Source: Fragilaria crotonensis (taxonomy: Eukaryota; Bacillariophyta; Fragilariophyceae; Fragilariales; Fragilariaceae). From it: a stretch of 64,000 bases of DNA. Shown here in pieces: positions 1,883 to 59,193 of this stretch. The position numbers and the translations under genes are program-made. Numbering within the stretch: position 1 is the stretch's first letter; each line of letters starts with the position of its first letter. The notes beneath the pieces are model-generated. The model saw only the letters and a list, made by a program, of their open reading frames with translations. It had not been told where the DNA came from and searched no databases. The DNA is taken from the NCBI GenBank assembly GCA_022925895.1, contig JAKSYS010000109.1:54796-118795 (forward strand), in the 5' to 3' direction.

Positions 1883-2656
1883 ATGTCTCAACATATTCTA
1901 GCCCTTGGAAGTGTCCCTGTTAATCACCTCGATGGATCGTCATCGTCAGGGTTGACTCGCTTGGAAAGTAAGCAACTCGTCACGCAACACCGTCAGTCGA
2001 TTCCTCCAAATTCCATCAGTTCGTTGGTGTTTTGGATTCAAGCGGACGAACTCCCTACAGTCTACGATCCCATGGAATTGGCGGGATGGGTTCCTCTCTT
2101 GGTCAAGGATGACGCAAGTACTGTCGAATTTAAGATTGTTGGCGACGAAACCACCAGTCTGGCGACCATTCATACGTCACTTCTCTTGGCTGGTCTCAAG
2201 GCCACATCCGAACGGAGAGAGGGAGATGTTCGCATGCTGACGGCTCACCGCAAGGCAACAACACTGACCATTAGTCAACCCATTTCGTTGGGGGGTGCGA
2301 AGAATGCTGTTTCAATTGACGATGATGATGGCGATGATGATTTGATTGATGAAGATGACTTGTTGAATGACACGACACTTGGAGCTCCTAGTATGGAGCC
2401 GCGAACAGTGAAAGGGGGTGACGATTGTTCTGGTCGTAAGGCCTGCGATAATTGTAGTTGTGGACGAGCCGAAGCTGAAGCGGGGGGAAGTCCAGTACCT
2501 GTCCTGACCAAGGAGGAGTTGGTACAGAAAACATCTTCATGTGGCAATTGTGCCAAGGGAGATGCCTTTCGATGCGCGTCGTGTCCATACTTAGGCAAGC
2601 CAGCCTTCAAGGCCGGACAAGAGCATTTGGTTTTGGATCTCATGGATGATTTCTGA
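1883..2656 (+). CDS. DRE2: Anamorsin / Dre2, cytosolic Fe-S cluster assembly factor (CIAPIN1 family)
   Basis: This is a single-exon gene of 257 residues. Family knowledge: Dre2 receives electrons from the diflavin reductase Tah18 and feeds the early cytosolic iron-sulfur assembly machinery. The C-terminal half shows both diagnostic cysteine motifs. The first is C182-x5-C188-x2-C191-x-C193 (in [14 protein letters not shown]), which binds a 2Fe-2S cluster. The second is C220-x2-C223-x7-C231-x2-C234, followed by PYLGKPAF, the usual CIAPIN1 ending. Between them and the N-terminal region lies an acidic stretch ([14 protein letters not shown], near 2318-2365), typical of the linker. The N-terminal methyltransferase-like region is shorter than in animals and plants. 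The ATG at 1883 follows a T-rich tract and is the first in frame. The next element downstream is a transposon starting about 260 bases after the stop. Confidence 0.93.
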
Positions 2657-2914
2657 TTTGAGCAGGTTTCGAAACTGATTTATCCTCAAAATTATTGCAT
2701 AACAATTTAGATTGTGTTGTCGACAAGGAAGGCAATGTTGTCTGCGGCGGCTATTAAGCCTGGACTGATTTGCAAATGTGCCCCACCACCAAGTTCCAAC
2801 GGGGAAGGCCCTCTCCTCCACAGGAGTTGCAAAACAGCCACATCGAATATGAATGCTCTCTCTGCAGTACATATGTTATATGTTATATGTATAATCTAGT
2901 AGATCACCTAAACA

Positions 2915-2941
2915 GTACCAGTTTAAACCCAGTACCTGGAC
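2915..2941 (+). repeat. Left terminal inverted repeat of the DDE element
   Basis: Identical over 27 bases to the reverse complement of 6290-6316. Confidence 0.85.
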
Positions 2942-3442
2942 GAACTAAATTACGACGAGTACCTGGACTAATTGAGAAACGAGTTAAAACGATCTATTCG
3001 TACACGAAGATCCATGATATCACCCAGTTGAGAGTTGTACTAAACCCCGAATCATAGGGGGGTACCGTAGGTCGATCTTGCTGAGAAGGTGTACCGAAGA
3101 CGATGGCGCGGCCGAAAAAATTATCTTTTTTTTTGGCGCATGACATTTTACTTCGTAATTTCAATGCTCATTACTGGAACATGTCAACGAAAAGAAAGAA
3201 AGGTCAGACCGCTACTGCAGTGGCACAAGTAAATAATGGTAGACCGACAATCCAGTACACTGTCGAAGATGTGGTCAAGTTGGTGCGTTTTCATTTAGAC
3301 CGGCTCGACAAGTTGCCATTGTGAATTGCAAAATGGCTGGGGTGATAATTAAATTCGTCGTACAATTATATTTTGGTCCTACAGCAATTTCATACTAACG
3401 AAATAAATCGCAATCTCATTCCGACAACATCACCGCAGGTGG

Positions 3443-5820
3443 TTGTCAATGGTATCACGGTTGATATGGCACTTCGGGGTTGTGGATTGCATGGGAAAGT
3501 ACCAAACAGTACAGTGTACTCGCATCAAGGTAGCAAGGAAGAACGGAATGTACAATAAAGAAATCAGGAGAGAATGCGAGAAGAAAGAGCAGAAACTTGG
3601 GTTGATTATAGAAATTCCAGACAATGGCACTACAACCTCTCGGGACGACATATCACCAGTCACCATCACAACAATCAATTCTTCATTGGCAGAAGGAGGC
3701 TCCGACACAACAATCACGACGAAGAAATCGCGACAATCTTCAAGACAAGCAAGTATTGCTAGACTTGACGCGAAGAGAGTCAAGCTTGACTATGATGGCA
3801 GGTACAAGAAAGCATTCAAGGATGCAACCAACCTCGTTGTAGCGAATGCTCGAGGTGAACCAGTCAATACCATTTGCAACAGGCTCAATCAAGACTTCAA
3901 GCTGGACGGGCGAAGCGCTTGGCAAGAAGCACTGTGTACCAAGCGGCAAAGGATGGTCGTGCTGGAATGAGTCCACCGTCAAGGGGTCCCGAACCGAATA
4001 TCCCAGGCAAGTTCTTACAGTTGGTGGCAACGCATGCGGAGGTCAGTCAAGTCGGAGATGGCGAGTTAAAGGGAAAAGACTTCAAGCGCTTGATTGGAGC
4101 CTCAATCCTTGGTACAGAGCACGAGACGAGGTACACTGTTGAAGGAGTATGGCGGAAAGTCCGAAAGGTATTCCCAGAATCGCTCCAAGCTGCGACAAAG
4201 CTCACGGTTGAGGATGCGAGAGCACAATGGACGACACATGACAATCTGAACCAGTGGTTTGACGATGCGAAACAGGACTTGATCAACACTGGTTTAGTTA
4301 TTGATGAGGAAGTCCTGGATGAGAAAGGAGCAATGGTGTCAGAGGTTTTGTTTCGCAAAGACACTGAACGGCGTATCATAAATATGGACGAAACTCACCA
4401 CGACCTAAGTATCACTGGGGACAGAGGCGGACCGCGTGCAGTGTCTTATCATAACCCTGCATTCCAACGTGGCGCCGCACGAGGCGTGAAGTCAGCAAGG
4501 CACGTCACTGGAGCGTACGCAACCAACGCAGCAGGAGAGGCCCTGCCACCATTCTACATATTCGATTCCAGTGCGAAGTTGTGGAGAACTTCCGAGTCAA
4601 GGTTGAGTGGCTTGAGGGACTGCCGTTGGTGACTGGGAGATTTGGCTGTCCAACCATCATAGAATCAGGCAGCTTTACGCAGTTCGCCCGAGAGGATCCA
4701 TGGACGATTCGTTGCTCAACGATTATATCGAGAAGGTGATAGTGCCGCTGTATCCGAACATGCATAAGACAGCTGTGTTTGATCCGGTAACTGGCAAGCT
4801 AAATCAAGGTCCTGTTATCCTCAAAGTTGATGCTGGGCCTGGAAGAATTGTGTCGTCAGAGGCGATCCTTTTAAAGCGAGAACAGTTCTTTGAACGCGGA
4901 CTCATCATCTTGTTGGGCTTACCTAATGCAACGAGTGTACAGCAGGAAATGGACGCTCTGTACGGTCCTTTCAAATCATCAACGTATGCACGTGGCGAGA
5001 AGGTGGTTCAACAGAAGTTGAGAGCCCGAGGCCTCGCCAGACGGAATGGCAAGGTTCCACCAGCTGTTTTGAACCTTGACTTCAATGACTTGGCAACAGT
5101 TGTCAACGGCACGCCTGACGACGAACCTCGCAACAAACCATTTGATTCGATCTTCACTGAGGAGAAGATTCTGAGATCGTGGGCGAAGGTGGGCTTCGTG
5201 CCATTTACTAGGAACTGTTTGAAGGACAAGAAAGTGAGGAAGGAGTTGGGACAGCGAAAGGCAGATGAGCAACTCGAGAACTTACAACGAAGGTATGATT
5301 TACTTGTTGACTCGTTTGAGGGAGACGGATTTAACGCTGGAATTTTTGACTTGGAAATACCGACGGCTGCTCATGTTATCAGAGCAGAAACCGAGGACAA
5401 GCAGGCGGAGGAGTTGGTCGAGAATGGAAAAGCCTTCTCCGTCGCTGGGCAATGGAACCACTGTCAGTCAAGAATCGGCAACGCAGGCGTCACCATTAGA
5501 GCTCAGAAGATGCAGCTCGAGTTGAATGAGACTGCGAGGACAAAGGTTGCGAACAAGAAAAGTGAGGCTCAACTGAAAGCTCTGGAGAAGGCTCAGATTG
5601 CATTGGCAAAGTTCGAATTCGATAGCCACTCCATGAACGACAAGGATTGGGGTGACGTGATCAGGTGGGTGCTCCTGAGGCGAAGGTCGAGTTCCTACTG
5701 AAGGACTTGAAAAAGAAGGAAGACATTCTGGCGAAACTGGCAACACTTCCCAACAGTTGGACCACCTACATACCTCGCAGGGAGCACACTCTTCCTGCCG
5801 TCCCAACAACAACAGTCTAG
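3443..5820 (+). pseudogene. DDE_1-like (pogo/Tc1 superfamily-type) transposase, frameshifted
   Basis: At least four frames must be combined: roughly 3560-3925, 3925-4575, a short middle stretch at about 4575-4695, 4700-5690, and a tail ending at TAG 5818-5820. Catalytic positions are recognisable by analogy with the DDE_1 family. The first Asp is in NMDET (about 4382), the second in LKVDAGPGR (about 4822-4850), and the third in QQEMDALYGPFK (about 4943-4975), preceded by LGLPNATS, where related enzymes have LPPNTTS. The N-terminal part is Lys/Arg-rich and probably DNA-binding. A C-terminal coiled, Lys/Glu-rich tail follows. Frame changes occur near 3900-3930, between 4570 and 4700, and near 5690. 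The protein is not translatable as it stands. Assignment to a precise superfamily needs a profile search. Confidence 0.72.
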
Positions 5821-12108: not shown

Positions 12109-15100
12109 TCAAGCAGACACCATACCCTTCTGCAGCTCTTCGATAATGCTATCGTTGTCAAGTTTCACGCCAGCCTTTCGCAGGAGGTCGTGAATTCCCT
12201 TGGCTTTTTGGCAGTCTTCCACATGCTTCACCAAACCTTCGGCACTTTCTTTTATCATCTCATCTGTCATATCCGGAACGTACACAAGCGACATGTAATC
12301 GAAGATTGCGTAAAGGGTAATCATAGGACGCAGTGCATTCGCAAAATCGTCGATCTTGAGGAGACCGCGTTTGCCCATTGCTACAGACGTTGGTCCCTTG
12401 CGCTTAGTGGCAGCTAGGGTTGGAGATACTTCGGTCTCCGTACTCTCATCTTGCACGATTTCCCAGTCAGAAAACGAAGACTGTCGGGGTCGACCTTTGC
12501 GGCTAGTTTGGCAACAACTGTCTTCAGCGCCAAGAGCATGTCGTCGGCCGGCGCATACAACAAGTCCACACAAGAAGTCCTCCTTATTAAGTTCCCAACG
12601 ACGGTTTGGGTGAGGAATCATAGCGCCCTTCTCCGGCTTGGCTGCGTCTTCGTCTTTGGTATTATGATACACAATACAAGTCAGTGCAGCCATTGGAGCG
12701 GCATCTGCGATTGCACGACACAATGAAGCATGTGTAGCTTTGCCGGCACCATCGTAGTCATCGGCCTCGACAATCTTGCAGGCAGCGAGAAATCCGCCGC
12801 TGAGGCAAATAGCATGGCGGGCAGTTTGGGGTGAATCGTGCTCGGCATCGTTCGTAAACATGTCAACGAGTAAAAGTTGGTAGAACAACAGGGACGCATT
12901 CGATGAAAGCGATCCTCCACCACAATCTGCATTGAGTGACTCCCCATAAGCCATGCGAAGCAACAGCAGCCGAACATCGTTGAGCACAGTCCATAACATT
13001 GCTTTTGGGCGCGCCCCCAACAAGTTCGAAATGGCATTCTGATACTCGGTCAAAGCCATTTCGACCGCAACGAGAGGAACCTTGGAGCTTTTCGACGAGA
13101 CAAGTGGTAAAATTACATTGCAATTCACTCTTGAGTTACGCAAGCTTGCTCCCTCCCATTCACTCTTAGGTGCCTTCGGATGGTTTCGATCGGCAGAACG
13201 AGCCTTGGAGTGACAAGCGCAGTGGATGGCATTCCCTGCAGAGACCGTTGTAGTAGCCTGAGTAGGCCTTTGGCTTGCTCCAGAAGTCGAATTGCTGTAG
13301 GGTGTGTTCGAGCTTCGGAGACTATCGCCAGTGACCTTGGCAACCGAGAACCATTGATGCTCCAACGGAGTGCCAACCAATGACGTAGGCAGCGATGAAG
13401 GCAATGCCATCAATAACATGGCGCCATCAATATAAGCCCTGGTTCCCCATTTGCTCGGAGGAATTGCAACCTTCTTGACGTAGCAATACAAGCCAAGTAG
13501 TTCTCCAGGTTGAAGAGTGCGACCTTCCTGGCAAACAGCACATGTAAGGCCTGTTTCATCCTCGAGCGCTTCCATTTCTGCTAGCCACGCGGGTAGCTCG
13601 GCACTTTTGGCGACAACTCCCTCTGTACTTGGGCTGAAAAATCCCAAAACAGGAGCAAGGAAAGAAGAGGCGCTGCTCCGGATAGCACCCCCCACTCCAG
13701 AACGAGCTTCGGGTACAGATCGTTCATCAACGACACCAGCAACCGGACCGAACGAGCTCATACTTACGAGCGCCTTGCTTCGTCGCTCGTCAGCGATTTC
13801 CTTCTTGCGATCGCGAGTCTTTCGACGAATGGCGCCAACCATTTTGGCAACCTCAGCATTCTCCTCCTTCAGTTCGTCGAGAAGCGTTTCCGCAACCAGG
13901 CCAAGTCCATTCAGACAAATTCGAACCGTCTTGTAATCTGAAGTCGACTCAATCCAATGACATGCATTGATGAAACGACCATCGCCGTACTCGGCCAACA
14001 CCGATTGTACGCCTTTGTGACCACGGCAGAGACCAACTAGCATGTCAATGGCAGTTTTGATGCCAGACCGAAGGAAATAGTACTTCCATGATTGCTCCAA
14101 ATCTGCAACATCTTCCTTCTTGGAAGCCTTTGGCCATAAGGAGGTTGACCATGGGGGCGGTTGATCGGGCATGTCTTCGAGAATAAACCTTATCAACTTC
14201 TCCAAGAAACCACACCTCAACAACTCGGAACGCAGCGAATGGCACACATCATTAGGAGGGAGACACACCGCTGCCTGAACGAAGGTTTCCATTAGTACAA
14301 AGCGCCTTGTCTTGGGTTGCTCTTTGGCCTCGCAATCACTCAATTTCTCCACCTTAACGTGCGTTTCAAAGTTTTCTGCCAATTCTCGCGCGAGAGAAGG
14401 GAGTCCATACGTAAGGAAGGGCAGTAGTTTTGCGATAACCTTGCGGAGCTGGGGTCCTAGGTAAATGGTTTTGAGTGACGACAACAACAAAGGGAGAGTA
14501 TTTGAGCCTTCATCGACTTCCATGTCATAGTCCGACGTATCAGCGTCGGTCGAGATGTCGGATGCTAATGTCTCTATAAGATCTTCCAACAAGACTGCCG
14601 TTGGGTTGCTCACAACTTGAGCATTTTGATCTGCCGAATTGTCATGAGCATCTGCGCTTGACGATTCGTCAATTGCATTCAAGGCATCCAACAACAACCG
14701 TAGCAAGATTGTCGGTGCTCGAGCGTCCACGAGTTTCTTGCAGTTGCTCGGCAACTTGGTACAGTAGTTCAACAAAACAAGTCCGGCAAACGGTGAACTC
14801 TTCTCGAATTTTGCGAGTGACAGATTCTTCTCACATCGCTTGCCGCGTCCACTGCGCTTGAAAGCCACGTCATCTCGTCGAATCCGACGCAATGTATCTT
14901 TGATATGCGACTGCAGCGACCGCAATAACACATTAATGCCACGGCCGTCCGTCACCAATCTTGTGAGACCAAATTCATTCTCCATGAGTCGCTCTTGTTC
15001 CTCCGGAGCTAAATTGCTAGATAAAGGTGCTTCCGGGTCATTCAACGTTTCCACCAAATCTTCAGTAGCTTCACCGTCGACACCTGCCAGACGATAGGTC

Positions 15101-16999
15101 ACAACCGTGGGAGGTAAGGCCGACGCAGGCGTCTCAGAAGTAATGGACGATCTTCGATCTGTCCGATCGGAACTGAAAACCATAGAGAGGCCGGATCCAG
15201 TTGAGAAGAAGGTCGGCGCGCCGACACCACCGGAGCTAAACACCGAGGATGAATTCTCGAGGAGGTGAGTCTTCCACAGTACTTGATGTACCACTCGCAA
15301 CTTTAAGTCGAGATTCAAGATTTTGTTGGCACAGAGCAGTTCAAGTAATTCAGCTGTTTCCGACATTTGCAGTTGGTCAGCGATGTATTGTCGCAAATGG
15401 CGCACCGTCGGTTCTTCTTGCTGCGATGTCGATAAGTGCGACAATGGGATCGGATTTCGGGTGAGCGACCCTCTAAAGAATTCCTCTTGCGATGGTGCAC
15501 GTCGCATGAAAATTTTAATATTGAGTGGTTTCTTGGGTGGTTGAATGACGTTACAGATCGTGAGCAGCAGACGCTGTTCTGCGGTCGTTGTTAGGAATTT
15601 GGTGTCCTCCTTGTAGCTATGGTTTGCGATGTGCTGTGCATTCAGAACTTGGAGACTGGCTTGCAAATAAAACGCTTGCCGTTTTGCGTCAGCTGGAGCA
15701 TCTTGTGTGGCTTCTTGCTCGCGAGACGATGATGATGGGCGCGATTCGTCTACTCCATTGTCATTGATATCCATTAGTCGTTCCTCGAAGTGGAGAACCA
15801 CGTCGACAATCTCTTGTTCCGCTTCCGTCTGGCGCCGATGTTAGATAGTTTATTAGGGCGTGGTAGTGGATTGTTATCAACGTTGACTTGATGATTAAAC
15901 TCACCATTTCTGCATCATTATCCTGATTGCCATTTTGCTCCTCGTCATTCTCGTCTTCTCCGTCGTCATCATCCTCCTCGTCATCCTCATCACCATCATT
16001 TTCTGATTCTCCACCCTCACCTCCAGCACGGATGACCAATTGGTAATCTGGATCGTCATCGCCTCCCTCTTCTTCAATTTCATCATCATCGTCGTCGTCT
16101 TCCTGCTCGTCCTCCTCCTCGTCGTCTTGTTCTTCGACAGTCTCCATTTCCAATTGTCCCGCTTCTAATTCTAATCGCTCCAGGCGTAGTAATTGTCGTT
16201 TGACCGATGCAGCAGTGGCAGTCGTTGAAGAAGTGGCCAAGTCTTCGGACTCACTGCGAATTTTGGTAGTTGTTGATGAGGCAGGAGTCGCATTCGGATC
16301 AACCAGTTTGGCCAACAATTGCGTCGCCACATGTAGTCCCCGCCCAGGTCGCCGCTCCACTAGCATAACATGTGCAGCGATAAGATTGGACAAAAGTGTA
16401 GAAGATGACCAGAGATAATCGTAAAAGAGACGGCGATCTTCGTGTTCGCGTTCCACAGCGAGCGACATGGCATGAAGATAATGAATCAGAAGCACGATTC
16501 GAGTCGGATTCTGAGTCGAGTGACAAGCCAAACGTTTGAGTTCGCGACCGGCCCACCTCCATGTGCGTAAATGGACGCCGGAAAGTTCTGTGAGGAGACC
16601 AAAGCTTTGGACGTCACCAGGCGATGCTGTAGAAGAATTCGAAGCCTGCAAATGGTCCAATATCGCATCAGCAGGCGCTTTGTGGCGAAAAAGAATTCGA
16701 GCCGCCATTTGTCGGACGGCGAGGATCGAAGAATCCAGGGCTCGGAACAGCCAGTGTTCATAGGACGACTGAAGAGTCGGCCTTTCAGTATTTTTCACCG
16801 AGGATGATGCCATTCGCCGTTTCTTGCGCCGAGGTTCTGTTGATGTGGAATCAGCAGCTGCACTCATCTGTTGATACCTCTTTGCAACACACCATTTTGC
16901 AATTCGTTTCGCAGCCTCGTAACGATGAAGCGCCTCCTTCAAGACACGTTCTGATGCCGCAGGCTGTCGCCATAAGCCTTCTAACAGCGGCAAACTCAT
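12109..16999 (-). CDS. UBR4 (C-terminal part): UBR4/BIG C-terminal part (hemi-RING and UBR4 E3 domain) as a separate gene
   Basis: There are two exons, complement of 15905-16999 and 12109-15828. The intron 15829-15904 is GT-AG, and the frame is continuous (NDAEM|TEAEQ). The product is about 1,604 residues from the ATG at 16999; the frame stays open further 5' to about 17212 without clear homology, so the start is uncertain. The hemi-RING is recognisable as TCAVCQEGR...GLYCYVKKVAIP (about 13480-13545). It is followed by the typical UBR4 series HCACHSKA, SEWEGASLRNSRVNCNVILP, and LLLLRMAYGESLNADCGGG. The C-terminus keeps the ITLYAIFDYM...ESAEGLVKHVEDCQ-type helices of this domain. A highly acidic stretch lies at 15905-16140. 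In known UBR4/BIG proteins this part is fused behind the UBR-box part; here it is transcribed divergently from it. Confidence 0.9.
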
Positions 17000-17856
17000 T
17001 TGCAGATACGGCGAACTTGAAATGGAAGTGCGGCGAAAGGAGAGATGTTTCGTGCCTGCGGTTCCTGCAGCCTGCAGTACAGAGTACAGGTTCAACGACG
17101 AGAACGACTGATGTTGATGAGTATATATCATACATACACTGTATGGATAGGAAGGGAAACGACAGACCCCGATACTAAGTACCAGGTACTTGTAGCTTGT
17201 ACGTATATGCATAGCTATGAATAGTAGCTACCTGGTACCTGGTACTGGTAGCTCATGGTCGTATGCATTCGCCATATGCATGTGGGCTACCACATAAAAA
17301 GAGAATGGTACTGCAGTATTGTACTGGAGTATTGTATTTTGTACTCCCTGCTGCTACAACTATGCTGTACTGTACAGTACCTGGTACTTGTACCAAATGG
17401 TTCTCGTAATAGAGAGTGTATTTCAACATTTTAACACGAATGTGATACTGGTCTACTGTACATCATACGTAGCGATGTAGCGATACACAAGAAAACTGCA
17501 TACTGGGCGTACTACATACCGGCAGTAGGATACAGCCGAAATCCGTACAGTACTAGTACTACACGAGCATGAAAGCACGAAAGCACGAAAGCACCACACT
17601 TCTTGACTCTCGATTCTTGACTCGCGAATTATTTGACGCCGAACACAGAACTCACGGCTCTCATCACACAGCACACACCATTCGATCCCGCCGTCGTCCC
17701 TAATCGAATACCAGGACAAGTCGAGTAGTCGAGTATCCACTTGTTACTTGCTCATTCAAGCATATCACTGCGCCGTCTTCACCTCCGCAGTGCCAACCGC
17801 ATTCGACTCTTTGACCAGCCTGTCGATTCTCTCCGTAATCATTGGCAAAGATCGAG
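17000..17856. promoter_or_regulatory. Presumed shared divergent promoter region of the two UBR4 parts
   Basis: Only non-coding sequence lies between the divergent starts at 16999 and 17857. It is strikingly rich in GTAC-containing words (for example CCTGGTACCTGGTACTGG near 17230 and TGTACAGTACCTGG near 17370) and in a triple AAGCACG repeat near 17570. No TATA box could be placed with confidence. The promoter role is inferred from position. Confidence 0.45.
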
Positions 17857-20800
17857 ATGCCGCGAGTGCCCCCAAAGCGCAAGAGGGGAGGAGGATCTGC
17901 TGCCGTTGCAGTGTCCGAACATAGGTAAGCAACGCAATCTAAGCAGTAGAGGGGTGATGAAGTTGAATGTACTCACGCTCATTCACAACTTTTTCTTGTT
18001 CCTGTTGCTGTACAGTCCTGCAGACATGACGTTGATTTCATCAGTATTGTCCGAATGGAATACCATTGCCAAGGATAAGCCTCGCAGCCTGGAATTGGTA
18101 ACAGCCTTGGTGGAGAATCAGTGTATGACCCCTGGAATTCCCGACCACACCGATGCCTATTGGCTCTTGCTGGCAACGCATACCATCAATCGACTCGTGC
18201 ATTTCATGAGTACTCACATGAATGGTGCCGGTGGTGTTTCTGGAAAACAAAAGCAACATCAACAGCTGGGCCACGTCGCAGTGGTTCTTGCACGCTTGTG
18301 TCATTCAGTTGCTACTGTCATGATGGTCGATAAATCAAAATTGGAGCGATTGACATTGAAACAAGTGCGGAGTTTGGTTGGACGCGCCATGGTCACTTTG
18401 ACGGTTGGAAGTTTCACTGCAATGCCCTACACTACTGGGAAGGCTTTGTGGGCCAGTGTCTTGGCGCTTGATATGGTGGTTTTTCAACAGTCGATCAAAA
18501 CGACGCCGACGCTCGATAAATGGCATGTGGCACACCAGGCCCTGGCTTCGTATGTGGAGGACAACGATGCATCCCTGCCTGAGGCTGACGAAGTCGAGAA
18601 CCTCATCGTATTCTCGGCGGAGGAAAAGGCCTGTCTCACGGTCTTGCAGAATGAACCACAGCCCACTCCCACAAAACGTAATCGTCGCAGCCCTTCCGCT
18701 ACGCTTCCTTCCGATTCCACAGCTGAAAGTGATCAAGAAGTGTCTCCGCTGCAAGCAACATTCGGAAAAATCGATCAGACCGCTCTGGAAGGCCGAGTCA
18801 TCATCAAGCGGATGCCCAGTATGGCTCTTATTTGGTTGGTCAATGGGCAGGAACGTATCCTGCAGTTTTGCCTGGAAGTCTTGCAAAATGGCACTGGTGA
18901 AATCCCAGCACAAACCTTCGGGACGCCCACCAAAAAGAAAACGAATCGCAAACGGACGACAAGTCTTGTCATACCTGCAAACGTCGCCAAGGTCACGCTT
19001 GTATCTCGCCTCTTGGCGATCATCGCTGAAGCATTGACGAATGGTGGATCACGACCACCGGTGGGAGGCATGGATTCATATGTGCAGACTCATCTGACGG
19101 AGAAGAAAGTTTCGAAGACGGCTGATGTCCGTGATCTCATGGTTGTAACAATGCATGCACTCGTGCAAGCACATGCCGACTGCTTGGCCGATTCAAAACC
19201 ACTTGTTCTTGTCAATGACGATGAAGCAACTGCCGTTGTCACTTCAGACGGTGGTGGCGTTGCCCGCTTTTGCCCCTTGGTGCACAAAGCTCTGGATTCC
19301 CTCTGTCGGGCGGAAGGTGCATCGACACGGAAGTTATTGTCAATTGTAGCCTGTCACATACTGCAGTCCAATGTCTTGGATGCCAAATTGTGTTCTTTCG
19401 CTATTGGGCAATTTCATAACTCCTTTTCATTCCTCTTAGATGGTCGGGAGACTTCGTCAACTGATTTGGTTGAGTCCTACAAATCCCTCCCGCCTCTACC
19501 AACTCCGACTCTCCCAAAAAAGGCGAAAAAGAGCCGAAAAAAAGAAGACGAGTGCTCATTTGCGGGGTTGCTAGAGAACTCAAATGCGTTGGTAACGGAT
19601 CAAGCTTTGCTGCCGTTGTACTTTCGAGCGTTGGGATCACCAGCAGCCATATTTTCCATGTTGTTGGACATCATGGAAGCGTGCTATGATACTACATCCG
19701 GTCATGCACTTGACGAAACACCAGATGCTCCAGAGACTGGTAAGGCACGAAAACAGGCCAAACAGAAGAAATTGGCACTTGCCGTGAAGACGGAACCACG
19801 CCTTCGTCGACTCACAGCAATTCGGGCTGGGCTAGCATCGGATGCGTGCAACGTCTTCCGTTCGTTGACTACCAATCAACATTCGTTACAGGCATACTTT
19901 CGCAGTTGCCTGTCGGTTGATGATCTTTGTCGCTTCGTGAGACTGATGGGAACCCTGGAAGCCATCCTTACCACAACATCCTCAGACACAAAGAATCGCG
20001 GTCCAGCGGCATCCTTCTTCCACCCCTCCTCGACCGACTTCAATCTCTACGAGAGAACACTCTGGTCGTCTCACACGAATCTGTGTTACGTTCTGGGTCG
20101 GGGAACTTTACTTTATTCGAGTGTCAAGAAGGATAGAGTCACACCCATCCTTGGTGATTCAAAAACGAGATTGACGGTCTTCCAGGAAATACCCAAGGCC
20201 TGCGGTACCAAGGGTTGGCCACTGCATCTGCCTGCCTCGTTTCACGCGCTGGTGACGACCAATTTAACGTGTGAACCTGTTTTACCCGGTCATCTGGAAC
20301 CCGAGGAGTTCATAGTCAGCACGCTCATTAGGTCCATTTCCGAAGCGTTGGAAGATCCCAGTCTGGTGACACATTCGAAGCGTTTGGGTAACGACGATGA
20401 TGATATGGAGAGAACAACCGACGAGAAAGCCGCGTTGTCCTTCCGTGACGCGAGACTCTTGTTGGTGGCGATTTCGCGGATGCCAAGTAAGGATCAGCTC
20501 AAACATCTTTCAGTGCTTGCAAAAGTGCTGAGTAAGTCTTTGGCTGCCTATCAATTGGATCACTCGTTGCGGAGTGTCATCGTCGAGCACGGGGAAGTCT
20601 CCCAATTTGTGGCTCGGGTCGTTACTGTTTATGCAGCACTCTTGAATATAGTTTCAGCAGACTTGACTGATGCCCTCGTCGACCAAGTGGGTCCCTACCA
20701 GTACTCCCTTCCGCCCCTTTATACTCTGGGTGACATACTCAATGGAGTCATTGCCAAGGATGGAAATTGGTATAGAAAGGACTGTTGTTTCATGGGTCTC

Positions 20801-23800
20801 TTGACAGATTGGGAATCACCTGCGCTACCTGCCGCGACCCCCAAGATGCCGTTGCCCAAGGACATCTTGCGCGAGACGAACGACATTTTAGAAGATGCGC
20901 TGCAACTGGGCTTTCAGTGTGCCCGCAAGGACTACGGGCAACTTCTGTTGCCGCCTGGAATGCATCTGGACGCAAATTGACATGGGACCCTCGCGGTCTC
21001 AAAGATGCTTCCGTAAAAGAGTTCTCGAATGCGAAGTCCCTGCCGAGTTTCTTGATGGAGCTTCGAGACGATATCTGCAGTGTATACTTGCACATAAATA
21101 GCAACAAGCGGGCGTCTCTGTCCAATTCCCTGTTAGGCCAAACGCTGAAAAATCATGCGACGTCGGAGCGGGCTGAGCCTCTGCAGGTGACATTGAACAT
21201 AATGCTGACGAAAGCGATCGCCGCAATTCACCATTTATTGGATACGTCCATTATACAACGAGATTTCGAGGACATCGAGTTGACACTCTTGGAGGCGCTT
21301 CCTGTTTACATTGCATTCGTCATGGCCATGCATACGACAACCATCGACACAATGCTTGCAAGAGTAGAAGGAAAGAAAAAGGTGAAGGGCGGTCGCAAAC
21401 GCCGAAAGTTACCAGCGTCGAAGGGTTCCTGTTACGATATCGAACTTCTCGCGTCTATCATGTCAGATGAAGACTCCGGCGGATCTGATGACGACTTCGA
21501 CCATGACGAAGCGAATGAGGACGGTGGAATCGACGGTCTCGCACAGCTGCACGACGCGTGCAATCTGTTTGGGGCCGCACCTGTCCATCCCGACTGGTTG
21601 GACACCACGTGCTCCCTCCGCGAGGGAATCGATGCCGTGGTGGCCGGTCAGAATGCAGCAATGGCGATTCAATGTTTGACGAAACTTGGGACCGTTGCCA
21701 ACGCTCAACACTCTAAAGCCGTTAAGAAATGTATGGCAGTCTTAGCCGGAAAGAATCCTGGAGATTTAGTGTGCGACGCTGCAGCGAGCCTTTGCTGCCT
21801 AGCTATAGACAGCTCGAATGGCATGTTGCCCCCTGACACTGTTTTCAATGGAGAGAACGAGTTTCAACGTGCTGTGGCTGCTGTGTTTCAAATCCGACCA
21901 GTTGCCATCCAGGATTTTTACAACGACTCTGCCAGTACCGGTTGGCGTGCCGCAAAGGAAGCGTGGATACCGAATTGCCCTCAGCAAATCATTGGCTTTA
22001 TCCAGAGTCAGAGTATCGATGGTGTCGAGGCCTCTTGCGGAGAATACCGTGCTGGAGGTGATTGGGAAATGCTTCTTTCGGAAGCACTAACTGGAGCGTG
22101 TACTGGTTGCGGTATGGATGATTCGGATAACAACATCTGGAAAAGTTTCGATGTGACCTCTGGCGAATCCGTCGGCCAGGTGGAGCGGGTCTTCGATGCA
22201 TATGTTCTGGAAGAACGGTGGCTTCGAATTGCTCAAGGCGTTGTGTCTCAGTTGATGCCCGCTGCGGCCCTTCTGAGGTTTCGCCAGACTGCCGCAAATG
22301 GAAGGAATCCTCATCCTTTGAGCAATAATGAAGGGACCCAGGTTTTGGACCCGCTGCTCCTGACGTCTAACGACAAAGAGATGGCTGAATTTGCATGCCC
22401 TAGATATACTTTGACAGAACCACTTCGATTTGCACTGCTTGAATGCCTTTCTTTCCTTGCCAGACGGTCCGCTCGAAGCAATGGAGATGACCTTGCCAAG
22501 CGCTCTTGCTTCGCTGCAGCTTCCAACCTTCTCGTCGACGCCCAGCCATGCGAAGACATCGAGGGCATTGAAACTATTTCCATGGTTTTCGATACCATCG
22601 AAGCGATGCAGAGCATTCTCGTCGCCGCTCAACCAATCGACGACAATTACCGCACATCCATTCGGCATTTAATGAGTTTGTTAATCAAGGTACTTCAGAC
22701 TAGGGGTAAGAGCCCCGCCATGAGCAAGATTATTGGAAGAGAAACCGATGTCCTGAGAATTTTCGCCTGCATCAGCTCGGGGACCATCTTTGTCGCATCT
22801 GTGCTGGGTATCGCTCGATTTGAGAAAGAGCATCTGGTTGACGACGAACGCGCCTTGAGAGAACGTGCGATCAAGGGTCTGGTCTTTGTTCTGTGCGCCG
22901 ACGACACGTTTGTGGAGGACGAGAGTCGCGCGGCAGTAGCGGCTATACTAGGTGAAATCCTCGAGCTAGAAGTTGCAATCGATTCCACAAGCAATGATCC
23001 TCTGGCTGTTCGCAATACCCTTCAAAGAATACTGAGCTCGCTAGAGGGCTGTCGCTTACAGAAGTTTGTTGAATTGGCGTATCCGGAAAGGAAGGAGACA
23101 GCGGACTGCAGTCTTCATGCAAGTCGAACAGCGATTGGAGTAGCGAAGGTTTTGGCTCTGGTGCTTTGTGGAGACACACCAGGCTCGTCGTTAAAGTTCT
23201 GTCATGCGGTGTTTGGGATACTGCAGAAGCGACTTGAGTCAGTGGCAACTCCCCTCGCGTCCAGAGAGCACTCTTTAGGCGTGTTGTTTCTATATGGTTG
23301 TCGCCTCGGTTCGCTTGATGCAATAGGGGCAAGCCTTATCGAAAGGCTCAGCGTCAACATCCTACACGAGCCCGAATTGATTCAAATGGAGTGTTTACTT
23401 AGCTTTGTCCAGGGACTGAGAGCTGCTCGACGTGATAACGCAAAGAGCCTCGCCCTTCCAACAACTCAAGTGAAATCGAAAGCGTCGAAGGAGGGCGAAC
23501 GAGTTGAGAGATGTCCTGTGCCTGGGGGAAAGGTCACGCGTGCGTGTTCTCATTTTATGCGAAATGGGTTCTTCCATCAGCATTGGTATAATTGGTACGT
23601 TTCTATTCCATTTTGTGCGACGCTCCGAATGTGTTCTAATGTGCTTCAAGCTATACATGTGGACTGGTGTTCGACAAGGGATGCTGTACACTCTGTGCAT
23701 TGGTTTGCCACAGAGGGCATGAAGTAGCATATTCTCGGAGTTCTTCGTTCTTCTGTGACTGCGGAGCAGATGTTGCAAGCGCGGGAGAACAAAATCGAGT

Positions 23801-26800
23801 GATATGTAAGTGTCTCTCTCTTCTATCAGAGGAGGAAGCCGAAAACTTGTGGCAAGAAGAGAGGGCGAAGAACTACTTGACGGCAAAGTTCGAGAAGGCA
23901 TTCTCTGATAAGGCAGTAGTCAAAGCTTGCGCCGGAGAAAGTGGTCGTCCGATGGATCTCTTCGTCAATGTCGCCTTGCTGTTTCATGAGGAAGCGTTAA
24001 TTGCCATCAAGAAAGTGAAAGCCGCGGCATCTCGCGATTCGTGGGTGCTTACAATTTTTGGCCTAATCAACGATCAATCTCAAGGAGAATCGACCACATG
24101 GGTGCTTGGCGAGGGGGAGGGAGCGTCGAGTCCCACCATTACCCAGGAATCTATCATCTCTGTGCTTATCGGTCGTTCAGGCACACCTCTCAAATTGGAC
24201 AGTTTCGACGATCCCAAGCTGGTTCCTATCAGGGCAGTTCGAGCAGGGTCGTTCAACGTCAAATTGTCACTCGACTCGACGACTGATCGCGTGAAACGAA
24301 CTATGCTGGCTCGGCATGGCATAGTTAGGTCTGCTGTTGTCGCAGATAGCCGTGGCAGACTCATTATCGCTGAACCAAGCTCCCTTGTCTTTTGCTCCAT
24401 CCTTCCAGCGATTAACACCCGGTACGTTGATGATCCTCTCACCACTCAGATCGGACGCTCTCAGATGAGTGTAGTCGCATCCCATCCTCTGTCGTTTGAC
24501 ATAGTTGGGATGCGAACCTGCACGGAAAATGAAAGACATGTGGTTGTCTGGGGCACGTCTGAAGCTTGCGTGGTCGTGCTGGCAAGGCACGGGATTGGTG
24601 TTGAGAGAACGGTGCACTTGGACCTAGATCTGGAACCTCATGAGTGTGACTCGGATTATGTGCTCCGATGTGACTGGGTCCCAGCATCGCAAGCACTTGT
24701 TTCAGTTGCATGTGGGACATTTGTGAAGGTCTACAGCGTCGCGAATGCTGAGAACGATGAAATCATCATTCCACAACTCTCGTACAACGTGGCGTACGAG
24801 GCAGTGATCAAAGATAGTGCTTGGGTTTCACTGCCTTTTCGTTCACAAAGCAGAAAAGGCGAACCAAAGAAAAGAAAGCTCACGTTGTTCTTGCTCATGG
24901 ACACTGGGCGGCTGCACGAAATTCAGCTGCAACTCGACAACCAGGGCAACATCGACGGACAGGGGTCATCATTTCTCGAGGGATCAAGTCGGTGTGTTGA
25001 TATTCCAACTGTTGGCGTCCGCCCCTACGAAGGTGTAACTGCCGGAAAACCTGGTTCGTCTACAAGGAGCATGGGCGAAGGTTGCAGTCTATGTTTCTTG
25101 CCTTTATCGAACATGTTGCTTTACAAATGCATCTCATCCTGTGTTGTCGCCTTGCCCTTCGACAAGGCTGGTGACATTGCGGGAAGCTTCGAACTTCTTC
25201 CCAACCGCCTCGACAGTGAAGTGCTTGGCAATGGGCCTGACGCCTACAGTATCGTTGGGCCTTATACACACTGGACTGAGATTGGGGTATTGGATGGAGG
25301 AATCCGACTTGTCTGTGTCGGAAAGTCCAGTCGTACGAACCACCCTAAACTCCTCTCAGTTGTTGTGAAAGAAGCATCGGTGAAAGTGAAGGAAATCGCG
25401 TGGACCGCGGGTGGTTCAGTTGGGCTCGGATTGAGCCTTAGTTCTTCTTTCGAAGGGCTCGCACTATTCTCAGGTCCTTCCTTGTCAGCGTGCTCAAAAT
25501 TTGACGAACGTCTCTACTTCTGTGTTGTGACCTCAAATGGATCAATCTTGATCTACGGGGAAGACTCGAATGATTCCATTCATGCTGGTGAACGTCCCGG
25601 AACGCCAGTCGACAGCAGCGCAGAAGGTTTAGAAAAGAAAGGGTCGGCAACGCCTCACATTGCGTTGACTTTTTACGAGGACTTGCGAAATGTAAGTGAA
25701 GCTGACGAGGTGAAGTTCGCCGGGGACGGAATCGGAAGGTAAGTTGACAACGCTAAAATCATTGGCGCATTGCGGATCAAAATTCTCACCCAGCGTTGCT
25801 CAGCGGAAACTCCGATAGCATTAAAGAAAAGCTGTCATCCAAGAACAGTGTCTACTTAATGAGTCCGTCTAGAGACGGATGCACAGTCACAGTCACTTTG
25901 GAGGGACCTGTTGAGGTGTCGAAGCTGGGTGATCGTGAGATTGCCGACTTGCCGATGGACATCCCAAACCTCGATGACATGGGCAAACACACAGTTGACC
26001 TTGCCATAGTTGCCCTTCGTTTTTTGGTTGGATCCACTAACACAGATTGCGTGCCAAGTCGTTTGTTCGTTCATGGACGACCATTCCAACTTACACCAAA
26101 TGTTAAAAGATGGTACGACGTCCCGCTCACGATGGAAGAAGTTCTCATGGCAGTCCGAAGTGGATCTGTCTCCGTCGGCCTTGGACCCACTTTCGAAAGT
26201 GGAAACAGTCCAATGGTAGATGCGATTGAGGTGTATGCTGTCGAGAGGAACAGAATCCGCCACCTTGTACCGCAAACGTTGGAATGCAGCCGGGAGAACG
26301 TGTACGATTGGTCACCTTCGAAGATGTCGACGGAACAGAGCGATTGCGCTAGCACACTTGTTCTGAATACGAGAATTCTTTCGTTCCTGTATCAGCTTGT
26401 TGGGGCACGTGTCAATCATGACACCCTCGAAGGAAAGTCATTGAAGCACCTCATCCGGAGCACGGCACTTAACGACGATAGATCAGTGCTCGACAGCGTG
26501 AGAGAGCTTCTCGAACAAGTGGAGGCGAACCCTGATCTGCGGCAAAAGTTTCTTGATGAGGGAACTCTGCTGGGTATCTCCGCGGCACTTCAAGGCGTTT
26601 CCAACAACGTCCGTCAAGCAGAAGTGAACGAGCTCGAAGAGAAGCATTTGGGGAAAAAGCTGAAAACACTACTTGATGCCAGCGTACAGTCCGCAATTTC
26701 CATTGCTCTAACTCGCCCTCAGAATTACGTCAGTGCTACAGAGACCTTTTCTTCTGATGGACTCTCGCCTACGTCGATCGCGATTGATGCAAGTGACATC

Positions 26801-29800
26801 CTGTTGTATGCCATCAATGCGGGCATTGCGTATCAGGACGTTTTCGAAAGAATTGTTCACCTCGTGCTGGCAGAATTGTGCATCGGCAATTCTTACAAGG
26901 AATCATCCAAAAGCAGCTTTGCTACGTTTGCCATTATCTCGAAGATGCTCAAGCTGGAACGGCAAGACGTCGTTGAGCGCTGTTGCAACGCCGTCAGGTC
27001 ATTCGTCGACAATTATAGTCCTTCGGTAAATCGTCAGGTGGCCGATCTCTTCAAATCTGCAGACCCTGATTTGTCAGCGCCGATTGCATACCAATGTGAT
27101 AGCTGTTCCAAGTTTCCAATCACAGATTCGCGGTATACGCTTCTCGAAGATGACCACGATATTGACCTATGTACGAAATGCTATCAGTTAGCAAGAACAT
27201 ATGCAGAAGGAATCGATGCTAGCCCGAACGCACCGGTTATCATAAACGGGCGATCAATAGGTGGAAGCATTAAGCTCAGCTGCGGACAGCTCAAAATGAT
27301 GGAATCGGTACCGATCGCCAATGGAACGGCAATTGTAGAGCAGGTGGAACAGGCCCTGCAGGAAGCGAAGTCTGCTGGACCTCGATCCTCAGATGTAGAC
27401 AATCGCCTTCGTCGAGCTATCCAGCGCAGCCAGCCAGCGATAGCGACGTCACCCGACAAAATCGTGATCAACTTCGACACATTCACGGATTGTCTGTTCG
27501 ACAACATCGTCGGCCTTGTCAGCTATATGCTGGACGGTAGTAACGCTGGTATTCCCATTGGAAGATTGAATCCGCTTCTGACTCTAGTGTTGGACTCCAT
27601 CAATTTTGGAGCGAATGAGAACGCGCACATCGCTCGCGGCAAACGATATTCTCGAGAAGTCTTGACATACATCCGTCGTATGCTTGGTGCCGTTCGAAGT
27701 GGTCCAAGATCAGAGAAGACGCGCTACGTGCTATTGATCAATTTCTTGCGATCGCTTGGCCGACTGACTGGTGTGAATAACGATGACATCACTGGAACCG
27801 TTTACGAGCCCGGTGAAACAGGAGGGCAAAGCCCTGACAAGGTCAAGCGGAAGACTGATCCGCGCTTCGTATGCGATGTCCACAGTGTCCCGGCAGTCAG
27901 GCGTCGCTGTTCAACTGGGGGGAACAAAAACAAGCGATTTTACGTCTGCGGCATGGATCGCAAACAGCGGTGTAAATATTTCAAGTGGGCCGACGAATCG
28001 AAAACGCGCGATCGCGTCGGGCAGCAAAGTCGATTGGAGAAGGAGTTGGAACTGTTTATTTGGCAATTGTTAAGTGACTCATCGCACTCGCAGACAACAT
28101 CGTTGAGTGATAAATTGTGCGATCTAATGGAAGCGGAGTTTTCCAGATCTGATTGTGGCAAAGGACAAGACATCAGTCCTTCAGAAGTCAAATCCGATGG
28201 TGATCAAATCCCCCTTAATAACAAATCACGAAGCAGCAGCCTTTACGATCGCGAGGCTGCAATGAAGGACTTGGAGGATGGCGTCTTCTGCTCCAAGGAG
28301 AAGAAATTCTGGGTGGCACCGCTCTGGATGTGCTCGCACGATACACTTGCGCTACCGAGGGAGCTTTTTCTTCCCGATGACGAGTCAGACGATCAAAACT
28401 TGGCCGACAAATTTATCGAAGCATCTCTTGACTTGGTTTCCACAGTTGCCTCGGCGTCGTCGCACGGCGACCTGCAGATGCCGAGTAACAAGCGTTGGTG
28501 TTCCTTGTTGTGCGAGGTGATCAGTGCCAACCCGGCGTCGCGATTTCGGCCGCAAGCAAAGAAAGCTCTGAAACGAATGTGCGGTGGTAATCGTGCTCTT
28601 TACCACAGTGTAGGAGATCACTATGTATTTGGGTTTCAGCTGAAGGAAATACTTCACCATGCAAAAGCTACATTGGATGGAGCTCTGAGTGTTCGTGAAA
28701 TGGCTCGCCAATGCGGCGAGAAATGGAACGAAGAAGAAGTATCGTGGCAACGGCTCGATGCAGGCGAGTTGCTGGGAACAATTGATCTTATTCCAGAAGA
28801 CTGTATGACTGCGGTCAATTCAAAGCGAATCGGGGCTATCCTTGACGAGTTGTTGTCGGTTTCGAAAAGCAGAGTCGACAATTGGAGAAACTTTTGTAGC
28901 CTACTTGCATTGCCAGTTAGTTACCACCAGCGTCCAGGGCTATCAGTTTTTGGACAGGAGAGGCTTTTAGTTGAGCGGACATTCAGCGGGCCCCCGATTC
29001 TATCATTGTTCTGGCTCTGCTGCACTTTACCAGGTCCAAACCAGGTGCTGGTGATGAAATTGATTGATTTGGCACTTACTTCGGCACAGGACCGGAAATC
29101 CCTTTCCACGGTGCATTCAAAAGGATCCGCGCAAAGCGAGGTTTTTGGCGAAAACATCGAAGGAGTTGTATCAGATGCAATGGAGGTCGACACGGACGAG
29201 GTATCCCTTCCATTCACCAGTGCCCCGCAAGCAAACCCCGAAGAGACGTTGTTGAAGGGGACAAAAGCGCTCTCCGTCGAAGATATCTATGCATTCTCAA
29301 TACAATTTGTTCTCGGTGGGCGGACTGCTGATTTGAGGAGAATCGCTTGCCAAATCGCAAGCAAGCTCTGTCGACATCTAGAAGCACAAAGTCTTTTTCA
29401 GGTGTTCAGGTTCCTAATAGGCAAGCCATTGGCTGAGATAGAGAGTATGGGCTGTAGCTCGGTTCAGTTCCTACAACTACTGCAATCAACCATGAAGGTA
29501 GGAAACTGGAAAGGTTCTCATGACCTGGCACAAGCGGCAAGAAAGATCGCGGTTATGTTTACAAAACAGATGAATTTGTTCCGATGGATGGGAGGGAGGG
29601 CGCAGGTGCCTTTAGAGCCAGGAAGAACCATTCTCACGAAGCGTTTTGATCTAAGCACCTGCGTTCATTGTCATCGACTTCATCATCCGTCGCAGAAGAG
29701 TGGAAATGTAAAGGCTGGTCCGCAAACGAATGAGAAGAAATCGTCAAAAGATACACCTCGAACGATGAGCAACGAAAAGGGTTCTACGGATGCAAGCCAA

Positions 29801-31552
29801 CCGTCGGAGCAGCGGTGGCTTCCGGACCAAGTCCGACCTTTTGTTCGGGGCCGACTGGAGAATTCTACTGAAAACACCTGCAGTTCCGAGTTCGCCGTTC
29901 TAGTGCAGTTGAAGTGCCGTTTGGCGATCTCAGAGATTTATGCCACTGTAAGCGAACCTCGCGGAAGGTATGCGAAGACTATCGTTGTCTCATTTACGCC
30001 ACGACAGGTTGCAGAAGTCAACGAACTCAAGTCAATCGACTACGAGCACTTGTGGCAAGAATGCGCCACTCTGACCCTCACAAGGGGTGCCACTCACGCG
30101 TCTTGCACCTTGCCAATTGCGGTGACCGCTGCCAATCTCAAGTTCGAGTATCGTGATTTCTACGACAGAGTCGGTGGATCCAGGGCTGCTGATGGTTCGT
30201 TCGTTCTCTTCTGTCCGCGATGTTCTCGACCAGTTAACAACGCTCACGGAGTATGCGGCAGCTGCGGCGAATGTTTATTTCAATGCAGACGTTGCCGACA
30301 TATTCAATACGATCGTCCGGATGCATTTCTCTGCACTGAATGCGGACATTGCTCGTCAGGTTCGTTTTCTTACGAGCTAAATGCTGGAATAGCATCCAAC
30401 GCCGTTGCGATCGTTGACGACGAAAGCTACGCTCGGATGGTGAAAGTGTCACGGGTTGCAACCAAACTTCATTGCGACCTACAGACGGCGTTGGTCGAAA
30501 TGGTGCGGACGGGCTCTCGAAAGCGGGCACCACCTGAGGTTCACCCACTCTCCGAGTACAGCCCAGCCATGAAACGGGCCCTGATGGGCGACTTACCTGA
30601 GGTGGATGACGACATCAAAAAGGGAGGACCATCGTCGAGCGAAAGGAGAAATAACGACACCTCTGGAAGGATGTCTGAGGGTCGGTCATCGTCCAATGCT
30701 GCCAATCGCGCCCGTTCACTACTTCGATTGGCCAGACAGTTGCGCAGTGAAGGCGAGCACTCTGGACGGAGCCGTGAATTGTTAGTACGTGAGGCTTTCT
30801 TGGGCGGATCTGAATTCTCCCTGGAAGAGGTGGATGACGATGGAACGGACATTGTTGGACTCTTCGGTGGCGGTGATCGCAGCGACACACTGACTCGCCT
30901 TATAGCGTCAATAACAGGCAGAAGCAACGCCGGACGAATTATCGAAAGGGCCACCACTAATACTTCGACTGTTGCAGCTGCTAACAGTAACACGACTGCA
31001 CTGACCAAGAAAGATTCGAGCAAGAATTCTGCCCAGGAATGCGAAAAGCTGTATCAGCTGATGCGAGAAGCTGAACGTGAATGCCACGAGTTGGAGCGCC
31101 GCTTGGACGCATGGAATCGCCTCGAGCGTGATTGTCTGAAGGGCACAATCCTTGAATCGGAGGTGCTGTGTTCGCCGACGAAGTGTTCTCGCTGTGCTGG
31201 ACCTGTGACACTGCATTTGCTGTTACTTATGGTGCGCCTTGTTCGATCGGAGAAGATTAAGCATATCGAATCGGTCATCACCAAAGACTTTGTTAGGGCT
31301 CTCTTCGTGGAGCCTCCTTCAATGGTAAAGGAATTGTTCGAACTTAAGCGCTTGGCGATTACCACCCTTTGTTTGAAGTCGGAGTATGCCGCCAAGCTTA
31401 TTCTGGAGGAGCTGAGAGCAAGACTTCGTGCATCCAGCGATGAAGTTTCAGCTTCGATTTTGGGCAAGCTTTTGGAGCATGATTTTTCCTTGTCTGCTGA
31501 GTTCTTGGCACTTGCCGATGAAACCTTGAATTCTGATTTCATGATTTGCTGA
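17857..31552 (+). CDS. UBR4 (N-terminal part): UBR4/BIG N-terminal and central part (UBR box, ZZ finger, zinc-ribbon region)
   Basis: Exons inferred: 17857-17924, 18016-23594, 23651-25738, 25804-31552. All introns are GT-AG and 55-90 bases long, with continuous frame across the joins, giving about 4,490 residues. Family knowledge: UBR4 recognises N-degrons and is a giant E3 scaffold (calossin/pushover/BIG). Visible domains: the UBR box at about residues 1850-1925, split by the second 56-base intron (FHQHWYNC|YTCGLVFDKGC, then VCHRGHEVAY and SSFFCDCGAD); a ZZ-type finger at 27090-27190 (CDSCSKFPI...DIDLCTKCYQLA); a GRF-like finger at 27868-27990; and the hallmark zinc-ribbon block at 30210-30380 (CPRCSRPVNNAHGVCGSCG, then CRRCRHIQYDRPDAFLCTEC). 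A -1 frameshift near 20965 separates two long frames that otherwise read on smoothly. The frame ends at TGA 31550-31552 with no hemi-RING, which lies on the opposite strand upstream. The 3' end is uncertain. Confidence 0.9.
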
Positions 31553-32923
31553 TTTTTCAGCCACAGTATGTCAAATGCTTCGGTACAGGAGTCGATCGCC
31601 TTGGCGACGCTGGATGCGGAGATGGTCGTTGTCAACAATACTAAACTCTTCATTACATGTTTATAACCAATCTATTTCTAGGTTGACTCGTTTCATGTTG
31701 CTGGCCTCAAGGGCGGGCGAATTGGTTAGGGGCAGATAGGGACAATGGTCGTTGTCAACAATGTCTTTTGCGTTAAGCCCTGACAATTCGGTGAACAGCA
31801 TAAGCAATGAACTGTTCAGCGGAGCGATAAGATAGTGGGACAGTGTCAACCAGCAGGGAAGAATGGATCAGATTCCGCAGTGTCTTCCTGTGTGTACGTT
31901 CGTGTCAATTCAAGTGGGGAAGCATTGCTGTGGCTTTGTTAGGGTGGCTGAGGTCAGGAGCAAGCGAGCTGGAATCTCCGGACTTCTTTCTCATCAATTG
32001 GGCGATGGATCCACATTTATAGTCATTCACGCAGACTTATCCTTGGAATCGTGTTAACATAGCAAATAATTCAAATTCAACCATCGGAGAGTCCGTCTCT
32101 ATTCATGAATGGAAAGAAACGGGGTAAACTCCTCCAGAGTCCTTATTTTTTTGTCGAGGTAGCAACAAGAAAGTAGGACTCGGAGTACAAGCATGCAAAG
32201 AAGTGCCCGATTGTTCGACTTTTAACACCCACAATCCCACAATTTCCGTAACTGCCGAAGGCGCTACTCCGACAACGCTATTTAACTCGTCATTTGCACG
32301 ACGTATGATACAACAGGCAGTCGTGCACCGAGGATGTCATTTGTCACATAGAAGGACATTCCGACGTCCGACATTCTTATTCTCTATCCAATTGGGAGAC
32401 CTGAATCAGGTTCGGAGACTGCCTTATTTGAATTACGGTATTTCAGTTCAGTGTCGAAACTTCCGTTTACCGGTCGTTCTGAGTACAGCAAGCAAAATAT
32501 TGCCGTGTGTTGGAGTTTGGAGTCGACGAGTCGACCCTTGACGCAACAAGAAACGCGACATTTGTGTCGAATGTCGTCTGCATATATTTTCATACTTGAT
32601 AGGCCGAAGGCCTCTATAGGATTATGTTCATATGCATATTAACTGAGGACTTCCAGCTATGCATTTTATTACTGGTAGTTTAGTGCGAGTACTAGTACTT
32701 TGAACGACGTATGCATACATATGTACAGAGTTCAGTAGTTGTACTCTACGTGTAACGCTGCAACCGGCGACAGGCACGATACGAGGTTTTGCATCAATCG
32801 TTCCAATTCTGCATCAAGAAATCGCCTTTGCATTGTGTCCTCATTTGACTTCATTTGACCAGATTTACGTACTATTCCTTGGTATAACTAGCGAGCAACT
32901 TCTCCGAAGATAGATTGGTTGGT
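31553..32923. other. Intergenic region after the UBR4 N-terminal part
   Basis: The first 110 bases remain open in the UBR4 frame after the TGA, behind a splice-acceptor-like TGATTTTTCAG, and end at TAA near 31665. Beyond that I see no conserved coding sequence up to the LRR gene. This interval would contain the proposed inversion breakpoint. Confidence 0.45.

Positions 32924-50935: not shown

Positions 50936-50972
<37 letters not shown>
50936..50972. repeat. (AC)n microsatellite at the left edge of the retrotransposon array
   Basis: About 18 AC units directly abutting the first base block (CACATTGGAG) of retrotransposon copy A. Confidence 0.9.
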
Positions 50973-50973
<1 letters not shown>

Positions 50974-55067: not shown

Positions 55068-55086
55068 CACACACACACACACACAC
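55067..55086. repeat. (AC)n tract between copies A and B
   Basis: About ten AC units joining the 3' end of copy A to the 5' end of copy B. Confidence 0.85.
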
Positions 55087-59180: not shown

Positions 59181-59193
59181 CACCCAACACACA
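59181..59193. repeat. Short AC-rich junction between copies B and C
   Basis: CACCCAACACACA joins the 3' end of copy B to the 5' end of copy C. The same CACCCAACACAC follows copy C. Confidence 0.75.

Follow-up and report, generated by a model that had tools for sequence, protein, structure and literature searches.

A UBR4/BIG-type ubiquitin ligase encoded as two divergent genes in the diatom Fragilaria crotonensis, with a cut point shared by diatom relatives

UBR4, called BIG in plants, is a giant protein-quality-control enzyme that animals and plants make as a single chain. We analyzed a window of 64,000 nucleotides from the araphid diatom Fragilaria crotonensis (class Fragilariophyceae in the taxonomy record; assembly GCA_022925895.1, contig JAKSYS010000109.1, positions 54,796 to 118,795, forward strand), in which this ligase is divided between a larger gene on the + strand, here the N-part, and a smaller gene on the - strand, the C-part. 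Judged by sequence, many diatoms encode UBR4 in this manner, as two genes with one fixed cut. The genome is a Canu assembly of nanopore reads (N50 17.8 kb) with Illumina polishing, derived from a non-axenic culture (PMC9476933).

The N-part gene (17857-31552, + strand), drawn from its reading frames and a gene model, has about 4,493 codons and three introns (17925-18015, 23595-23650, and 25739 to about 25803 or 25818) and encodes the recognition scaffold of UBR4/BIG. Its UBR box (23542-23768, N-part residues 1872-1937) is split by the intron at 23595-23650 and has 57.6% identity over 66 amino acids with Ricinus BIG and 58.3% over 48 amino acids with Ischnura UBR4; a family profile, made mostly of relatives, matched the UBR4 UBR-box structure 8j9q at 2.7e-19. 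Farther along the same strand lie a GRF zinc finger (27872-27997; PF06839, Pfam 1.2e-6), for which the solved-structure match is the DNA-repair protein Endonuclease 8-like 3, and a second beta-sandwich with a zinc ribbon (about 29906-30376), which aligns with human UBR4 3564-3729 at an i-Evalue of 3.8e-24. The whole frame carrying the latter matches human UBR4 at 2e-31. A first-pass annotation of this DNA had named a UBR box, a ZZ finger and the hallmark zinc ribbon on the + strand. Sequence matches bear out the box and the ribbon, whereas the ZZ finger remains a cysteine cluster spotted by eye (27095-27187), with no Pfam match to a ZZ domain in the N-part at 1e-3. The gene closes with the last solenoid helices and a conserved stop (31454-31552), at about human UBR4 residue 4004. 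Just 3' of the stop, a stretch of about 18 bases (about 31620) can be seen by eye to recur about 120 bases on (about 31740).

The N-part frame changes near 20950 (about 20940-20960), and no canonical intron accounts for this. Because five of six relatives read the LLF/LLY..WNA.G.R motif at the site unbroken, we regard the change as a probable single-base indel of the draft sequence. The organism's own deposited protein, P0121 ('zinc ion binding protein [Fragilaria crotonensis]'), is 100% identical to the N-part across the searched region. It begins past the frame change, lacking the first 1,035 residues of our model as well as residues 1865-1939, the UBR box region; we take these omissions to be a gene-model error arising from the frame change and a mis-called intron.

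The C-part gene (16999-12109, - strand) has 1604 codons in two exons (16999-15905 and 15828-12109) separated by a short intron (15904-15829); the first-pass annotation put the intact frame at about 1,600 codons. Residues 1-240 (16999-16280) are predicted to form armadillo-like helices (mean pLDDT 86.3), beginning at about human UBR4 4001. The assignment of a hemi-RING and C-terminal E3 domain to this strand was sound: the product matches PF13764 (E3_UbLigase_R4) at 5.6e-89 and the solved chains of BIG and UBR4 at 1.6e-38 and 8.3e-33, respectively. A putative UBL region (15570-15265) is indicated by a RAWUL match (8.1e-4, at 20.2 bits under the 33.5-bit cut-off) together with a profile that aligned BIG 4121-4238 at an i-Evalue of 4.2e-7 and human 4334-4429 weakly (i-Evalue 35). 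Within the hemi-RING (13557-13114), C763, C766, H869 and C872, numbered from 15828, are presumably the zinc-binding ligands, as in the UBR4/BIG family. As these Cys and His positions are invariant in 13 of 13 rows, the catalytic arm is likely active.

In both gene models the two genes stand head to head, with 857 bp between their start codons (17000-17856), in agreement with the 0.86 kb given earlier. The one polypeptide typical of the UBR4/BIG family is here replaced by two genes on opposite strands, and its domains are divided between them, so that recognition and catalysis fall to separate products which together make up one UBR4/BIG, as had been proposed.

Relatives of each half were sought by protein searches. 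The search with the C-part exon was limited to 684-2175 amino acids, a range that bars unsplit proteins (the best 8000 candidates scored). It returned 161 relatives, and the 120 that were listed and examined all carry PF13764; they include Seminavis robusta, Nitzschia Nitz4, N. inconspicua, Fistulifera solaris, Epithemia and Pseudo-nitzschia arenysensis, and three (P0006, P0053 and P0054) are MMETSP proteins marked complete. The N-part search (about 2,470-7,860 amino acids; the best 1513 candidates scored) would admit unsplit diatom proteins, and its nine matches were the organism's own P0121, six N-only proteins (P0122-P0127), Cylindrotheca closterium among them, and two unsplit proteins, from Ischnura and Ricinus. 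One of the six, P0122, is an MMETSP protein called complete ('type:complete', 4539 amino acids), and PF13764 is absent from all six and from the N-part itself. A third search, with C-part words at 2,090-6,650 amino acids (the best 2058 candidates scored), gave 27 matches, 23 of them C-only, including Conticribra weissflogii, Cyclotella cryptica, Thalassiosira profunda, T. exigua and Minutocellus polymorphus. The other four are unsplit: Nicotiana, one that groups with plants in the tree, P0149 and P0150. The best of these reached 303 bits, versus 490-1370 for C-only proteins. Similarity to the N-part was found in none of the 120 listed C-only proteins and none of 19 new ones (0/139). Cyclotella and Minutocellus belong to the centric class Thalassiosirophyceae, and no named radial centric (Coscinodiscophyceae) occurs among the matches of these searches. 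At the level of sequence, the fission is documented for pennates and Thalassiosirophyceae, but not for diatoms as a whole.

The ends created by the split are shared as well. The N-part and all six relatives have their stops only a few residues apart, past a conserved ILGK helix and one last helix, and C-only proteins start with a SLPLLEGL-like motif. A loose LPLLxGL-type form of this motif lies within the first 130 amino acids of 55 of the 139 C-only proteins and in none of the 138-139 scored at each of seven later 130-residue control stretches. The strict form, present in 34 of 139, is found, among others, in Seminavis, Epithemia, Pseudo-nitzschia, N. inconspicua, Minutocellus, Conticribra, Cyclotella and both Thalassiosira; many of the 84 proteins without the motif start at a later exon, while a few, e.g., that of Fistulifera, are full-length but diverged. 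Two measures of conservation were not used as evidence: the first 12 C-part residues are the most conserved head window, a result biased by most rows having been picked for having the start, and the last N-part windows lie near the middle of the range or lower, at conservation percentiles 0.15-0.54 (tail starts 993-1009) and 0.55-0.86 (977-989). In a tree of the catalytic region, 30 C-only proteins are separated from six unsplit ones by a branch with 100/100 support; the rows were hand-picked, and the unsplit ones have long branches, which the program flagged as potentially misleading. A split private to this genome is contradicted by N-only relatives that end alike, by C-only proteins without N-part sequence and by the shared starts. 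The simplest reading is one fission before Thalassiosirophyceae and pennates parted, a divergence more than 100 million years old.

Solved structures place both new ends at one point. All 12 Foldseek matches of the N-part tail at E <= 0.001 are UBR4/BIG chains. By structure comparison, the tail maps to human UBR4 3188..4004 and to the worm protein 2443..3123, while the C-part head maps to human 4001..4300 and worm 3125..3369. In these predicted models, one solenoid is cut cleanly, with little or nothing lost. A lost segment of 50-100 residues at the cut, suggested by weak sequence profiles, was considered and dropped because the structure mapping leaves no gap in human (4004/4001) or worm (3123/3125). 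In human UBR4, two chains form a ring-shaped substrate arena, and the C-terminal armadillo repeats extend from it as an arm that carries the UBL, the hemi-RING and a hairpin that binds E2 (PMC7618180). By this mapping, the diatom cut would assign the parts of the arena to the N-part product and the arm to the C-part product.

Two genes, a cut common to relatives and both ends on one point of solved UBR4 are what we observe; the reading that we consider best, and hold with good confidence, is an old fission in which both halves were retained and reassemble non-covalently. An ancestral single-chain UBR4/BIG gene would have been cut once, before the divergence of pennates and Thalassiosirophyceae, at the joint between two helical repeats of the armadillo solenoid, and the halves would have persisted from then on as two genes. 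Of their products, the larger would be a substrate-binding scaffold with the UBR box, a stretch matching the propeller region, the ZZ-like cluster and the zinc ribbon, and the smaller one a catalytic arm of C-terminal armadillo repeats, UBL and hemi-RING. We infer that the halves dock end to end, the first C-part helix packing on the last N-part helix and so restoring the solenoid non-covalently; as a separate subunit, the arm would probably need to re-dock. The outcome would be a UBR4-type E4 ligase with a detachable arm, its E4 activity and its single origin by inversion being parts of the same proposal.

The fission could be equally old and the C-part nevertheless act alone, as a free E4 arm with its own partners, leaving the N-part as a scaffold for other ligases. 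Each half is conserved separately, and a UBA_4 domain near the C-part start in Cyclotella, T. profunda and T. exigua (P0138, P0141 and P0143; none is shown in the Conticribra and Minutocellus C-parts) would possibly supply a ubiquitin-binding module of its own. We consider such independence unlikely, as both cut ends coincide at a single position of the solved solenoid, in human and in worm, and each half lacks what the other supplies. A further arrangement, in which the diatom arm is free and exchangeable, leaving the scaffold and docking under control or serving other scaffolds, with a ubiquitin-reading domain of its own gained in Thalassiosirales, is a tentative idea to which we give about a quarter of our belief. 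If it is true, the scaffold and arm of a giant E4 ligase would be regulated separately.

Two further explanations confine the split to Fragilaria. The halves are adjacent and divergent here, and inversion of one block would rebuild a single gene, so that a recent inversion in the Fragilaria lineage might have split a gene kept whole in other diatoms. The relatives speak otherwise: an N-only protein occurs in Cylindrotheca, C-only proteins occur in Nitzschia, Pseudo-nitzschia, Seminavis, Fistulifera, Epithemia, Cyclotella, Conticribra, Thalassiosira and Minutocellus, and the ends are shared. We rejected the idea that a private inversion produced the split and regard it as highly improbable. Just as hard to credit is an inversion or chimera introduced by assembly, the alternative raised in the first-pass annotation. 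The draft does come from a non-axenic culture (PMC9476933), and the window contains a sharply bounded GC-rich block as well as the frame change; however, the stop and start at the cut recur in other pennates and in centrics, transcript-derived proteins included, and we rejected an artefact as the cause of the split. What an assembly error could still affect is the way the two genes are oriented and spaced in this genome, and nothing more. Least probable of all is a post-transcriptional joining of the halves into one protein, e.g., by trans-splicing, which would explain their precise complementarity but found no other support. Against it, each half is bounded by a start and a stop of its own and is represented separately by MMETSP proteins called complete (P0006, P0053 and P0054 for the C-part; P0122 for the N-part).

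Head-to-head adjacency of the halves was seen in F. crotonensis, the one diatom whose gene order was read. Inverting the N-part block gives back the ancestral order, and an inversion as the cause of the old fission is a plausible conjecture; that both genes share one divergent promoter is also conjecture. We estimate that, among the 26,015 predicted genes of the genome (PMC9476933), a given pair would lie side by side by chance in roughly one case in ten thousand; adjacency is therefore probably meaningful, either as the relic of a local inversion or as linkage retained for shared control.

The two diatom proteins together carry the features of human UBR4 (PDB 9nwe, 9qws and 9qx0) in the same order: UBR box, beta-sandwich with zinc ribbon, a predicted armadillo scaffold, a putative UBL region and hemi-RING. 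The human protein, however, is one chain of 5,183 residues (9nwd), whereas the diatom chain is broken at about human 4001-4004 and has, in addition, the GRF zinc finger. Plant BIG, the best sequence match of the C-part (Arabidopsis, PDB 9qt9), is a single chain of about 5,100 residues, in contrast to the two diatom proteins. Arabidopsis UBR4/BIG has an internal ZZ domain (PMC7618180), to which the ZZ-like cluster of the N-part may be compared. The same source describes a UBR4 complex architecture conserved across eukaryotes, with KCMF1/DI19 and calmodulin as partners and E4 activity in human, worm and Arabidopsis, calmodulin being absent in worm (PMC7618180). The best-scoring unsplit protein, P0149 (4926 amino acids, from a metagenome), has a ZZ domain (2.2e-11), a GRF finger and PF13764 all in one chain, and a UBR box that is under the Pfam cut-off yet has 53% identity over 62 amino acids; it differs in not being split and in its long tree branch. 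Fission of one gene into two is also described for the folate pathway (PMC4224340), but there the products are enzymes of one pathway, whereas the diatom case divides the continuous solenoid of a single giant ligase.

Searches of open-licence PMC papers turned up no description of a split UBR4 or BIG from diatoms. A two-gene UBR4 cut exactly at the junction of scaffold and arm would amount to a natural split-protein experiment in an algal group, showing where the enzyme is divisible and still kept by selection. Biochemistry would gain two pieces easier to handle than a single chain of 5,000 residues, and the split would serve as a rare genomic marker for diatoms or within them. Scans of viral contigs (62 pattern matches) and of prokaryote genomes (104 pattern matches) confirmed no relatives, as expected of collections without diatoms.

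Because the GRF finger is listed in three of seven N-only proteins (the organism's own, P0122 and P0126) and in unsplit P0149, it may be older than the fission; none is present in the precomputed domains of four listed animal and plant proteins, three of them plant-type. The T. profunda C-part has a weak HSF-like match (E 0.048, under the cut-off). In the window, a frame of the HSF DNA-binding type (9534-10166; PF00447, 6.2e-15) lies on the same strand as the C-part and downstream of it, which is curious next to that match in one Thalassiosira C-part. HSF genes are numerous in diatoms.

Away from both genes, the GC-rich block covers some 12 kb (about 50950-63300); its G+C content per kilobase is about 62-69%, its edges are sharp and its surroundings have about 40-50%. 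An insert of foreign origin, a chimera and an unusual gene rich in G+C are its candidate identities; it has long open frames, five of which were tested and gave no Pfam match.
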